Shown: positions 34,380 to 41,922 of the stretch, in pieces | Layout of the letters: each line of letters begins with the position of its first letter | Numbering within the stretch: the first letter of the stretch is position 1 | Source: an uncultured cyanobacterium | GTDB taxonomy: Bacteria; Cyanobacteriota; Cyanobacteriia; CACIAM-69d | Length of the DNA: 64,000 bases | Direction of reading: 5' to 3' | NCBI GenBank assembly: GCA_937883785.1 | Contig: CALGDE010000013.1 | Coordinates: forward strand, 1 to 64,000 | The notes under the pieces: model-generated | Database searches by the model: none | What the model was told of the DNA's origin: nothing | What the model saw: only the letters and a program-made list of their open reading frames with translations | Made by a program: the position numbers and the translations under genes

Positions 34380-36275
34380 CTATAGCTGAGGAACCACCTG
34401 ATCCTTCACGGGAACCTCGGCGTATTCAGCCACGATTTGACGGAATTCCTCGCCATCAATGGTCTCCTTGTCCACCAATAGGTCAACTAGGCGATCCACA
34501 ACCTCGCGATTATCTTCAACGAGCTTCAGGGTGTCCTGATAGCAGGCTTCAGAAATAGCGCGCACTTGGGTATCAATACGAGCTGCCACTTTCTCCGAAT
34601 ATTCAGAGCGGGAAGCACCCAGGTCGCGTCCCAAGAACACTTCGCCTCCCTGGCTTTCCAGAGAGAGGGGACCCAAGTCGGACATACCGAAACGGGTCAC
34701 CATCTGACGCGCCATATTAGTCACCTGCTGCAAGTCGTTGCTAGCACCGGTGGTAATCTCAGAGTCGCCAAAGACAATTTGCTCAGCGGCACGACCGCCC
34801 AAAGCTCCGCAAATGCGAGCCAAAAGCTGTGATCGCGACACCAGCATCTGATCTTCGTTGGGGGTAAACCAGGTCAAACCGCGAGCCTGACCGCGAGGAA
34901 TCAAGGTCACCTTTTGCACCGGATCGTGATCCTTCAGCAACGTTCCCACGATCGCGTGACCCACCTCGTGGTACGCCACCAAACGCTTACTCTTGCTGTC
35001 CACCATGGCAGTGCCTTCCATACCGGCAATCACCCGGTCAACGGCATCGTCAATTTCCACCATCTCAATGGCTTCCTTACGACGGCGAGCGGTCAAAATT
35101 GCCGCTTCGTTCAGCAAGTTCGCCAAGTCCGCACCGGTAAAACCAGGGGTACGACGGGCGATCGCCTCCAAAGAAACCTCGTCAGCCAACTTTTTGTTGC
35201 GGGCATGAACCTCAAGCACCGAGCGACGACCCTTCACATCGGGAGCCTCAACGGTCACCTGACGGTCAAAACGACCGGGACGCAACAGGGCAGAGTCCAG
35301 CACGTCAGGACGGTTGGTTGCCGCGATGATGATGATTCCGGTATTACTCTCAAAACCATCCATCTCGGTCAGCAGCTGGTTCAGAGTCTGCTCACGCTCG
35401 TCGTTACCGCCACCAATACCGGCACCACGCTGACGACCTACGGCGTCAATCTCATCAATAAAGATGATGCAAGGGGCGTTCTCCTTGGCTTTCTTAAACA
35501 GGTCGCGCACACGGGACGCACCCACACCCACAAACATTTCCACAAATTCAGAACCGGAGATGCTGAAGAACGGTACGCCCGCTTCACCAGCGATCGCTTT
35601 AGCCAAAAGGGTTTTACCGGTTCCCGGAGGTCCCACCAGCAAAACGCCCTTAGGAATGCGAGCACCAATGGCAGTGAATCGCTCAGGTTTCTTCAGGAAG
35701 GTAACAACCTCTTCCAGCTCTTCCTTCGCTTCGTCCACACCAGCCACGTCGTCAAACAACACGCCAGTTTTCGCATCCATTTGGAATTTGGCGCGGGACT
35801 TACCAAAGTTCATCGCCTGCCCAGGACCGCCGGGCACGTTGCTGGAGCGGCGGAACAGGAAGAACAAGCCCACCACCAGCAATAGCGGGAACACCAAGTT
35901 CCCCAAAATTCCAAACACAGCACCGTCGTTGCGCACCGGGTGGGAATCCAAGTTCACGCCGGACTCACGAATTTTGGACACCAAATCAGGGGCCGCCATG
36001 GGCAAGTCCACCCGCAAGCGCTGCACCCGATCGTCCAGCTCAGGATCAACCGCTTCAACGATCGCCGTTTGTCCGCCTTCATAAAGGTCAACCGACGTCA
36101 CCCGACCTGCGTCGAGATACTCCAAAAAGCGACCGTAGGTCATGCGAGTATTCGCCGCGTTCTGTCCGGCACTGGTGGTGCCCACGTTGCTAGAAAACGC
36201 CCCTTGCCATAGGAAAAATCCCACCACCAACACGGGCAGGGTCCATAGCAGAATGACTCTCCAAGGTAGTTTCAT
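34380..36275 (-). CDS. ftsH: ATP-dependent zinc metalloprotease FtsH (thylakoid FtsH2 type)
   Basis: Degrades damaged membrane proteins, notably photodamaged D1 of photosystem II. The 631-residue product has an N-terminal membrane anchor, a lumenal segment, a second anchor ([17 protein letters not shown]), Walker A GPPGTGKT, the second region of homology and the zinc motif HEVGH (about residue 432). It closely follows, from N terminus ([20 protein letters not shown]) to C terminus ([16 protein letters not shown]), the Synechocystis Slr0228 form, which works as a hetero-complex in thylakoids. Monocistronic, with a long 5' region. Confidence 0.96.
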
Positions 36276-36846: not shown

Positions 36847-37518
36847 CTAGCGATCGCCCAGGGAAACCTTGGCAAACCCATGGGGAACATCCGACGCCCC
36901 CCCCATAGACCCCGACGGAGTATTTCCTGAAAAGGGGTTGAGGCGATCACCCTCTGTCAAGTCCTCTAAATCATTAAAGTGGCGCAAAATGCTGTCTTGA
37001 TCCTGAGAACGCCTAATATCAGCGCAGCTTAGGGTCTTCAGTCGCTTTAAATATTCATGATCACTGACCTGCCGCCCAGCCACAATCTTTGCCAACACTT
37101 CAGGCATCTCCGGGCGCAGAGACAACAAATGGGAAAACGCCATCGGCGACAACTCCAGCAGCTTAACGTTACTGGAAGCCCAAACGGTGGCGGTACGACG
37201 AATACCAGACATTAGGGAAATTTCCCCCATCAACGACCCCGGCGCCAAAGAAAAAACCTTCGGGGGCGCAAAATCCGTAAACTCCACCTCGCCACGAACC
37301 ATGCCAGCCGCCAATATATAAGCCGTAAAGCCCTCATCGCCCTGGCGAAACAAGGTGTGCCCCTCTCGGTGGTGAACAATACTGACCCGTGACACCACAC
37401 TCCAAATCTCACTGGGAGACAGTGAAATGTTTGATGATGCGAGCAAATCCATCAGAGCTGCCTGAATGATCTCGAAGACATTTTTGGGACGTGTAGTCAT
37501 AAATCTCAAGCCCGCCAT
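36847..37518 (-). CDS. Cyclic-nucleotide-binding domain protein without DNA-binding domain
   Basis: The product has 223 residues. One cNMP-binding beta-roll spans about residues 45-150: EGHTLFRQGDEGFTAYIL and the phosphate-binding cassette GSLMGEISLMSGIRRTATVW, with the Glu and Arg that contact the cyclic nucleotide. No helix-turn-helix follows; the C terminus is helical and then disordered, so it is not a CRP-type regulator. A stand-alone sensor or regulatory subunit is likely; the partner is unknown. MTTRPKNVF at residue 7 is an alternative start. Confidence 0.82.
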   Translation of the reverse strand: MAGLRFMTTRPKNVFEIIQAALMDLLASSNISLSPSEIWSVVSRVSIVHHREGHTLFRQGDEGFTAYILAAGMVRGEVEFTDFAPPKVFSLAPGSLMGEISLMSGIRRTATVWASSNVKLLELSPMAFSHLLSLRPEMPEVLAKIVAGRQVSDHEYLKRLKTLSCADIRRSQDQDSILRHFNDLEDLTEGDRLNPFSGNTPSGSMGGASDVPHGFAKVSLGDR

Positions 37519-37892: not shown

Positions 37893-37998
37893 TTTCGCGG
37901 ATTTTTGCGGATTTCTTTTTTTGTTCTTTTCGCAAGTTTACTGTTTCGCAGATTTTTTGCCCCTGAAATTGCGGTGTTAACTGCGACTTTAACTGCGA
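37893..37998. repeat. Short repeated motifs upstream of the actin-like gene (candidate parC-like site)
   Basis: A perfect direct repeat TTAACTGCGA occurs at 37977-37986 and 37989-37998 (12-bp period). Related words precede it: TTCGCGG and TTTGCGG (37895-37910, 10-bp period), TTCGCAA (37930) and TTCGCAG (37946). The region is otherwise T-rich. Repeats directly upstream of an actin-like/RHH gene pair are where a ParR-binding centromere and autoregulated promoter would be. Function is inferred from position only. Confidence 0.5.
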
Positions 37999-38029
37999 AT
38001 TCATGTGTAGTCTTTCAGGTCAGCGAGTT

Positions 38030-39046
38030 ATGGCGTTATTAAGTGTGGATTTGGGGCGGACGGCAACCAAAGCCTGTGTCGGTCGCAACCCTGAAGAGGC
38101 GGTGATTATTCCGTCCAACGTGGCACCGGTGGGAGTAGACCGGGTACGCCAGGGCAGTTTTGAGGCGGGTTTTGCGGAGCCCCTTTGGGATATTTGGCTG
38201 GAATATCAGGGGGGCGGTTATGCCTTGGGGCAGCTAGCGGCAGACTTTGGGGCAGATTTGGGCGTTGGTCAGTCCAAGGTGGAAGACGCACTGGTAAAGG
38301 TATTGGCCTGCGCGGGACATTACCGGCTGTCGGGGCGTATTGCGGCGGTGCTGGGGTTGCCTTATCTGTCCCAAGAGCAGTTTGACCGAGAAAAGGAGCA
38401 GATGTTGAGTTTGCTGCGATCGCCCCATATTTTTAGCTATCGCGGTAAGGCGGTGGCGGTGGAGCTGGATCCGGTGTGGGTGGTGCCAGAGGGCTATGGC
38501 AGTTTTGTGTGGACGGAAGCCTGTGGCGGGTCGGCGGCGGAATTGCTAGGGCGGTCTGTGGCGGTAATTGACATTGGTCACCAGACCACGGATTTGCTGA
38601 CCATTGACCGATTTCGGTTTGCTCGAGCGGCATCGCGCAGTGACGACTTTGCCATGGATGAGTTTTATCGGCGGGTGGCGAAGAATATTCCCGGTGCCGA
38701 CAGTCAGTCCCTGGCGCTAATCGAGGCGGTGAATCGTCCGGAGGGACAGCGGCGGTTCCGGCCACGGGGAGAAAGTCAGCCCACAGATTTAGATCAGATA
38801 TTGCCCAATTTGCGGCGGGCATTTGCGAAGGAGCTATCCCAGCGCTGTATTTCCTGGCTGCCGGAGCGGGTTACGGACGCCATTATCAGCGGCGGCGGCG
38901 GCGAGTTTTTCTGGCCCGATTTAGAAACGCTGCTTACGGAGGCAGGACTACAGGTACATTTGGCGGCTCCGTCTCGCTTGGCTAATGTGCTGGGTCAGCA
39001 TGCCTATGCCACAGCGATGGTACGAGCTTCAAAGCGCAGCGCTTAG
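38030..39046 (+). CDS. ParM/StbA-like actin-family ATPase
   Basis: The product has 338 residues. All three nucleotide-binding signatures of the actin superfamily are present: phosphate-1 LLSVDLGRTATKACVG (D7, G9), phosphate-2 VAVIDIGHQTTDLL (D181) and the adenosine motif AIISGGGGEFF (from about S287). Length and motif spacing match ParM/StbA rather than DnaK, FtsA or MreB. Such proteins form ATP-dependent filaments that push apart DNA molecules held by ParR. ATG 38030 is preferred; an ATG at 38003 lies in frame. The next gene, 92 bases on, encodes a probable ParR-like partner. Residence on a chromosome is unusual. Confidence 0.82.
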   Translation: MALLSVDLGRTATKACVGRNPEEAVIIPSNVAPVGVDRVRQGSFEAGFAEPLWDIWLEYQGGGYALGQLAADFGADLGVGQSKVEDALVKVLACAGHYRLSGRIAAVLGLPYLSQEQFDREKEQMLSLLRSPHIFSYRGKAVAVELDPVWVVPEGYGSFVWTEACGGSAAELLGRSVAVIDIGHQTTDLLTIDRFRFARAASRSDDFAMDEFYRRVAKNIPGADSQSLALIEAVNRPEGQRRFRPRGESQPTDLDQILPNLRRAFAKELSQRCISWLPERVTDAIISGGGGEFFWPDLETLLTEAGLQVHLAAPSRLANVLGQHAYATAMVRASKRSA

Positions 39047-39075
39047 GTGCCTCGTATTGGATTCCTCGCTTTGGA

Positions 39076-39103
39076 GCAGGAGTATTTGGGGCAGGAGTAT
39101 TTG
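39076..39103. repeat. Tandem 15-bp repeat between the actin-like and RHH genes
   Basis: GCAGGAGTATTTG occurs at 39076-39088 and again at 39091-39103. It lies in the 92-bp gap of the gene pair and could be a second binding site for the RHH protein or a spacer duplication. Confidence 0.55.
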
Positions 39104-39138
39104 AAGCAATTTGGACCGTTGAAATTGGAGCATTGACA

Positions 39139-40185
39139 ATGGCAGCTCGACAGACATCAGTGACAAAAACATCCACGCGACGCAAAGCCACAAAAGGCAA
39201 GGTCACAAAGAAAACGGTTTCATTTTCCTTGGAGGAAGATCAGGGGCTGCTTAGCGCCATTGAAATTACTTTGGAGGAGGGAGAGTTTGATAGTTTCAAT
39301 GCCCTGTGTCGCCATGCCCTAAGTCAGTTTTTATTTGCTGATGATGAGCCGGAGGAGGAGGTTGAGACGGTGTCTGCCCAGCCTGCGTTTGACCCCAGTG
39401 AAATGGGGGTGGCGATCGCCCAGGCACTACAAACCAATCTCCAGGCAAATTTGCAGGCAACTCTCCAAGCAAATACGCCGCAACCTCAAGCAAGTCCTGA
39501 TGCAGAAAGTTTGGGCGGAGCGATCGCCCAACAGCTTATGGAGCAACTAAAGGCGACGTTACTGCCTCAGATAGAGGACTCCCAACCCACGATTAATATT
39601 GATATCGACTCCCAAGAAATTGGCTTAGAGGTGGCCCAGAAGCTGCTCCCAACCTTGCAAAACGCACAGGAAAGAACCATTACTGAGGCGGTGCATGATG
39701 CGATTCTTGAGGAGGGCATTGTGGGGGGGATTGGCAATAAATTAGAACTGACGCCCACAACGCCGACAGTGGCTACCAGTTGGGAAGAGGCGCGGGGCGA
39801 AATTATTGCCGGTGTGGCGACCCAGCTAGAGGCAAAGTTGCGGGAGAAAGATCGGGTGTTAAGTACCCTGCTGGAGGAGGTGAGATCGCTCCCTCGGCTG
39901 ATGCAGGAGCTAAAACACGAGGTAAAAAGTGAAGTTCAGGCAACGGCTCCAGCTATTGCTCCCCAATCGGAAGATAACGGGGCGATCGCCAGTGAACTGG
40001 TGGCGGATCGGGTCGTCGGCGAGTTGGACGCCAAGCTAGATGCAAAATTGGATGCCATTGAGGCAGCAATCTCCCAAAAAATCCCCGTTGTTCCCCCCGA
40101 ACCCGAAACCTCTGATGAAGAGAAAGCGCTTGAGGCAAACGACCAAAACATTGATCGCCTAGCTGCCTTTTTGGAGCAGTTTTAG
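39139..40185 (+). CDS. Ribbon-helix-helix protein with long acidic/coiled-coil tail (candidate ParR-like adaptor)
   Basis: The product has 348 residues. A basic Lys/Thr-rich leader is followed by KKTVSFSLEEDQGLLSAIEI and FDSFNALCRHALSQFLF (about residues 23-67). That is strand-helix-helix, the pattern of ribbon-helix-helix DNA-binding proteins including ParR. The rest is Gln/Ala/Glu-rich with repeats (NLQANLQATLQAN; LDAKLDAKLDA) and predicted coiled coil. In plasmid systems ParR binds centromere repeats through an N-terminal RHH and caps ParM filaments with its C terminus; this order is reproduced. The tail is much longer than classical ParR. ATG 39139 has GGAG eight bases upstream. Confidence 0.65.
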   Translation: MAARQTSVTKTSTRRKATKGKVTKKTVSFSLEEDQGLLSAIEITLEEGEFDSFNALCRHALSQFLFADDEPEEEVETVSAQPAFDPSEMGVAIAQALQTNLQANLQATLQANTPQPQASPDAESLGGAIAQQLMEQLKATLLPQIEDSQPTINIDIDSQEIGLEVAQKLLPTLQNAQERTITEAVHDAILEEGIVGGIGNKLELTPTTPTVATSWEEARGEIIAGVATQLEAKLREKDRVLSTLLEEVRSLPRLMQELKHEVKSEVQATAPAIAPQSEDNGAIASELVADRVVGELDAKLDAKLDAIEAAISQKIPVVPPEPETSDEEKALEANDQNIDRLAAFLEQF

Positions 40186-41555: not shown

Positions 41556-41583
41556 TTGGACCGTGCAGGAACCGGGATACACT
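41556..41583 (+). promoter_or_regulatory. Sigma70-type promoter of ccmK
   Basis: TTGGAC (41556-41561), a 16-base spacer and TACACT (41578-41583) fit a -35/-10 pair. The -10 box ends 30 bases before ATG 41614. This argues against the longer frame that would begin inside the promoter at 41563. Confidence 0.6.
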
Positions 41584-41613
41584 GTTGCGGTACTAGTGAG
41601 TGAGGACGAAAAA

Positions 41614-41922
41614 ATGCCCGTTGCCATTGGCGTAGTTGAGTCATTGGGATTCCCCGCAACGTTGGCGTGCGCCGATGCCATGGTGAAAGCGGCACGGGTA
41701 ACGCTGGTGTTTTTTGATAAGGCGGAAAAGGGAAATTTTTACGTGGCAGTGCGCGGTCCCGTATCTGAAGTGGAGCGGTCCGTGGAAGCAGGCATCTTGG
41801 CGTCGTCAGAAACCATGGGCGGCAAAGTGATGAGCCACTATATCGTGCCGAATCCACCGCCCAATGTGGAAGACGTGCTCGATCTGCTTTACACCGACGC
41901 GGTGGAACCTTTCAGGGTTTAG
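41614..41922 (+). CDS. ccmK: Carboxysome shell hexamer protein, CcmK3-like
   Basis: The product has 102 residues and is a single BMC domain that forms part of the carboxysome facet. The start MPVAIGVVESLGFPATLACADAMVKAARVTLV is the BMC signature. The middle FFDKAEKGNFYVAVRGPVSEVE and the tail GGKVMSHYIVPNPPPNVEDVL resemble CcmK3 more than CcmK1/2 or K4. CcmK3 normally pairs with CcmK4 in mixed hexamers and the genes sit together, but no ccmK4 lies in this window. GAGG eight bases before the ATG and the promoter upstream support this start. Confidence 0.93.
   Translation: MPVAIGVVESLGFPATLACADAMVKAARVTLVFFDKAEKGNFYVAVRGPVSEVERSVEAGILASSETMGGKVMSHYIVPNPPPNVEDVLDLLYTDAVEPFRV

Follow-up and report, generated by a model that had tools for sequence, protein, structure and literature searches.

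A chromosomal, ftsH-linked FcmBC/CorMR pair with a double-length adaptor in a cyanobacterial genome, probably serving cell shape

The window, by which is meant the whole stretch of 64,000 nucleotides analysed (positions 1-64000 of a contig 75,480 bases long, in a cyanobacterial genome of 4.84 Mb and 167 contigs), contains a pair of genes which, with a probability that we put at about 85%, encodes the FcmBC/CorMR chromosomal cytoskeleton controlling cell shape and not segregating DNA. Within this system, described only recently, it is somewhat atypical, and it does not constitute a new device for positioning chromosomes or carboxysomes; it belongs to that family, its adaptor has both of the conserved ends, and its site is chromosomal and linked to ftsH. 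A preliminary description of this DNA had proposed a ParM-ParR-parC-like segregation cassette. Its observation is partly confirmed, and its interpretation was right on ancestry and most likely wrong on the likely cargo. As FcmB and FcmC had already been described (PMC12645912), what it described fits a published system, and its suspicion that the cargo is something other than a plasmid accords with control of cell shape by the family in Nostoc.

That 2025 work on Nostoc punctiforme (Npun_R4472/R4471; PMC12645912) found FcmB in membrane-associated filaments around the cell, and FcmC to interact with it and to be required for the membrane localisation of the filaments. Mutants of the pair lose rod shape, their nucleoids being distributed without obvious change, and in the authors' view the system is derived from one for plasmid partition (PMC12645912). 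On this model FcmB, a ParM-lineage actin that binds ATP, would polymerise, and FcmC, a ParR-derived adaptor of the filament, would tie it to the cell envelope, probably dimerising via an N-terminal ribbon-helix-helix and probably binding the filament by a C-terminal peptide as ParR does ParM. The pair would in this way control cell shape, a role extended here from Nostoc to the organism of the window. That the role is the same in both is not assured, because the window FcmC is below the family cut-off, has roughly double the usual length and is devoid of the tryptophan-containing N-terminus considered below.

The actin and its adaptor

The features of the two genes are as follows.

38030 to 39046, plus strand: fcmB/corM, ParM-lineage actin-like ATPase, 338 aa (NCBIfam FcmB equivalog; phmmer match to CorM in the PDB)
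38048 to 38071, plus strand: phosphate-1 motif of FcmB, DLGRTATK
38570 to 38593, plus strand: phosphate-2 motif of FcmB, DIGHQTTD
38891 to 38914, plus strand: adenosine motif of FcmB, GGGGEFFW
39139 to 40185, plus strand: fcmC/corR, filament adaptor, 348 aa (NF052682 FcmC; both ends common to 20 aligned relatives)
39196 to 39345, plus strand: N-terminal ribbon-helix-helix-like domain of FcmC (alignment, 31-43% identity to relatives; weak ribbon-helix-helix matches among relatives)
39346 to 40140, plus strand: long variable middle of FcmC, probably helical (long helices in a model of low confidence; all relatives gapped here in the alignment)
40141 to 40182, plus strand: conserved C-terminal motif of FcmC, DQNIDRLAAFLEQF, family form DPLLxRLxxLLxDF (21 sequences)

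For fcmB an alternative ATG at 38003 would give 347 aa, and the ATG at 38030 is favoured because an AGG lies 10 nt upstream of it. The fcmC frame opens with TTG at 39133, and its ATG at 39139 has GGAG before it. FcmC is encoded directly downstream of fcmB on the same strand.

The frame from 38030 to 39046 is confirmed as a ParM-lineage actin. Its product matches Pfam ALP_N at 7.9e-14, and the three nucleotide motifs to which the preliminary description had drawn attention lie in columns strongly conserved among 12 FcmB proteins, apart from single variable positions. A profile search gave 533 bits (3e-160) with the NCBIfam equivalog for FcmB, NF052678, whose curated cut-off is 300 bits. By sequence the best match in the PDB is CorM, 9rmi (phmmer 1.7e-134), an entry titled 'Cryo-EM structure of the CorM filament in the presence of CorR from cyanobacterium Anabaena sp. 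PCC 7120'. AlphaFold models of FcmB with one relative, and of FcmC alone, were of low confidence (pLDDT 48-49; 48 for FcmC). A fold search with the FcmB model also put CorM at the top (1.7e-24, 52% identity), a match that is sequence-driven because the query model is of low confidence, and only that match was used from it. A CorM structure with CorR present implies that both systems have the same two components and, because of the sequence match, we take CorM/CorR and FcmB/FcmC to be one system. The window pair differs from CorM/CorR in the same points as from the FcmBC of N. punctiforme.

How far is this from the ParMs themselves? With plasmid type II ParM-ParR-parC systems (R1, pSK41, pCBH, AlfA/Alp7A) the pair has in common the actin fold, the operon order and an RHH-like adaptor that ends in a conserved peptide, whereas it is chromosomal, has only candidate repeats, and a profile of the FcmB family reaches true ParMs only at about 1e-6, and the solved ones at 6e-7 or weaker. 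The chromosomal cParMs of Desulfitobacterium and Clostridium (PMC12270681) are likewise ParM-type actins of the chromosome, but remote in sequence (1.5e-6 by profile). In the tree a branch with 100/100 support parts the FcmB rows, the window's included, from six ParM-like outgroup rows, cyanobacterial plasmid-type ParMs. The StbA_N profile (PF06406) had no match, and the control genomes gave none either.

The adaptor is more divergent. Against the FcmC equivalog NF052682 it scores 28.6 bits (E 1.5e-6), short of the curated cut-off of 90 bits; the same model is matched by all 21 downstream partners of FcmB, the window's among them. That it is far longer than ParR, as had been remarked, holds also within its own family, with 348 aa against 139-241 aa for FcmC relatives. 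What is conserved is the two ends, aa 22-71 and 337-350 in numbering from the TTG, and the window protein carries both. At the first, all 21-22 relatives have in common a 50-residue strand-helix-helix pattern, with invariant F, D, F, L and C in the 21 aligned partners, and individual relatives weakly match the Pfam families RHH_1 (E 0.0028), RHH_5, RHH_8 and CopG antitoxin. The Pfam RHH families have no match to the window FcmC itself, nor does the FcmC profile match anything in the PDB. The pattern and the relatives' weak matches support, without proving, the earlier proposal that this protein begins with a ribbon-helix-helix-like domain. At the other end D337 and F350 are invariant and P338, R342, L343 and D349 nearly so (21 sequences); by analogy with the ParR peptide bound to ParM in PDB 4a62, this motif is the probable filament-binding peptide. 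An internal repeat in the middle region was considered and rejected, the self-alignment scoring 47 where shuffled sequences had a mean of 38 and a maximum of 58.

In comparison with N. punctiforme the gene order, the chromosomal site and an actin above its cut-off are alike, as are the RHH-like N-terminus and conserved C-terminal peptide of the adaptor. The window FcmC, however, at 348 aa against about 160, has no MFQWSKK-type N-terminus and is below the FcmC cut-off, the window FcmB is without the N-terminal tail of ~40 residues of its N. punctiforme counterpart, and the window pair has ftsH linked to it, a gene that the shorter stretches around the f7 copies did not show. A tryptophan-containing start of FcmC (MFQWSKK, MALWAKNK or MLWANRK) is present in 37 of the 44 copies scanned, and we infer that it may help membrane attachment. 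Those in which it was not found are the window's, those of CCP2 (L001), G027 (L038), G360 (L044) and G320 (L043), and two from f17; it is missing also in L036 (G374). Apart from G320, the copies without it belong to a single FcmB clade, of seven rows (97/95). In the tree the window is joined to f17 at 93/95, a pairing on which we do not rely because both branches are long. Could the FcmC ribbon-helix-helix in this clade (the window genome, CCP2, G027, G360, G374 and f17) still bind DNA, its pairs being an evolutionary intermediate between ParMRC and the cytoskeleton that filamentous cyanobacteria have at the membrane? It is a notion to which we would give rather long odds. With ends that are fixed, and a middle and N-terminus free to vary, FcmC indicates where filament binding, and the switch from a DNA to a membrane cargo, might be sought.

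A chromosomal site beside ftsH

Two genes on the opposite strand lie before the pair.

34380 to 36275, minus strand: ftsH, divergent conserved neighbour of fcmBC (same head-to-head order at nine other fcmBC loci)
36847 to 37518, minus strand: cyclic-nucleotide-binding-domain protein, between ftsH and fcmB (Pfam cNMP_binding, 8.4e-12)

That the site is chromosomal, as had been supposed from its neighbours, is borne out by ftsH, which stands head to head with fcmB at nine other fcmBC loci from several families: CCP2, G027 of f8, and G099, G129, G157, G255, G320, G203 and G195 of f10. Some of these are on contigs of chromosome size (G099 6.7 Mb, G027 4.7 Mb, G255 5.5 Mb). The cNMP_binding gene is in this position in the window genome only, the other fcmBC loci having nothing equivalent. 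Since fcmBC adjoins ftsH as at those nine loci, it was probably inherited at this site.

Horizontal arrival was considered because FcmB was not found in the five other genomes of the window's order. In four of them ftsH is kept (82-84% identical), with no trace of fcmBC in the 11-12 kb around it, and the fifth, a fragmented genome of the same genus, has no FcmB match anywhere. The conserved linkage, and the retention of ftsH without fcmBC in four relatives, disfavour such an arrival and make loss of the pair in the relatives likelier than its gain in the window genome.

A 20-bp element, CTTAACTAAATTTAACTTAA, occurs upstream of six fcmB genes. It was considered as an fcmB operator and set aside, as it is on the ftsH side and occurs also once at loci without fcmB (G118, G191). 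Since an ORF with a relationship to the ftsH region is present at those fcmB-less loci, the element more probably belongs to an ftsH promoter. It lies upstream of ftsH in L001, L037, L038, L040, L042 and L049, and occurs also in L113 and L118, with one or two per genome; in the window genome it had no match.

Upstream repeats and the question of cargo

Directly before fcmB is one further feature.

37977 to 37998, plus strand: direct repeat, two copies of TTAACTGCGA at 12 bp, candidate operator (dinucleotide shuffles, P 0.022)

Is the pair then a working type II ParMRC, its adaptor binding these repeats as a centromere and FcmB pushing chromosome copies apart in a polyploid cell? The ParM ancestry of the actin, the RHH-like N-terminus of FcmC together with its basic tail, and the tandem repeat itself would all suit such a device. 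Of the repeats that the preliminary description had singled out, the exact 10-bp pair (37977-37986 and 37989-37998) is real, but a repeat as long occurs in 2.2% of dinucleotide shuffles of the 145 bp and in 1.4% of window tiles, and the TTCGCGG-like words are barely or not enriched over shuffles (P 0.045-0.7 by word length). Marginally non-random as they are, the repeats give no evidence of a parC, and upstream of the pair in CCP2 and G027, the nearest relatives, no comparable iterons or repeat pair were seen. With CorM, a cytoskeletal protein, the best match to FcmB, and with the Nostoc relatives acting on shape and leaving nucleoids without obvious change in the mutants (PMC12645912), the segregation cassette with parC is not supported, and DNA segregation by this pair seems to us very unlikely.

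What else might the repeats do? They may be an operator. FcmC could be the adaptor of a shape cytoskeleton while keeping DNA binding solely as an autorepressor of its own operon via the 12-bp repeats. Proteins of the ribbon-helix-helix class commonly repress their own operons, and the repeat pair is just before the fcmB start; it is not seen, however, upstream of the nearest relatives, and the operon is in no relative of the order. This would refine the reading as a shape cytoskeleton and is compatible with it, and though we think it improbable, it is the least so of the additional roles weighed here.

Positioning of carboxysomes or of some other cargo had been suggested from a ccmK-type BMC-domain gene at 41563-41919, 1.4 kb downstream. 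That gene, like ftsH, is indeed a neighbour. However, the window ccmK is unmatched in the DNA retrieved around other fcmBC loci, so is in no conserved arrangement, while ftsH recurs, and the family is known to function in cell shape (PMC12645912). Such cargo positioning is, to our mind, extremely unlikely. With respect to the shape cytoskeleton, mreB was found in all 11 genomes tested, the window genome included, as in Nostoc.

Breadth across the cyanobacteria

A survey of conservation and synteny, one of the checks proposed at the outset, found, in addition to the linkage with ftsH, that 62 of the 386 genomes sampled from the phylum have an FcmB above cut-off. No relative was found in viral contigs and phage genomes. 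All eight genomes of one deep-branching order, that of G241 (f17; 2.1-3.2 Mb), have FcmB (loci L034, L035 and L161-L169). This order is, we suspect, the unicellular Gloeomargarita group, and if so, the statement in the literature that unicellular strains have no FcmB needs to be revised. Its FcmC copies mostly carry an apparent second RHH-like segment. A divergent fcmBC with an adaptor of double length, and a site linked to ftsH across several families, argue for a system older and wider than the picture centred on heterocyst formers.

FcmB-like genes are present also on plasmids of Nostocales (L156-L158: Nostoc pNPM2, Dolichospermum pUHCC0315c and Trichormus plasmid A). Their products are 47-50% identical to that of the window and nest among chromosomal FcmB in the tree, and no FcmC was detectable beside them; for these reasons they look like secondary escapees. 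In the f7 genomes G030 and G245, second FcmB copies (L047, L048) are long open frames of 514 and 527 aa, with no FcmC detected beside them. In the 2.2 Mb genome G374 (L036:4640-5647, minus strand) fcmB has an in-frame stop, TAG, and the adjoining fcmC is open.
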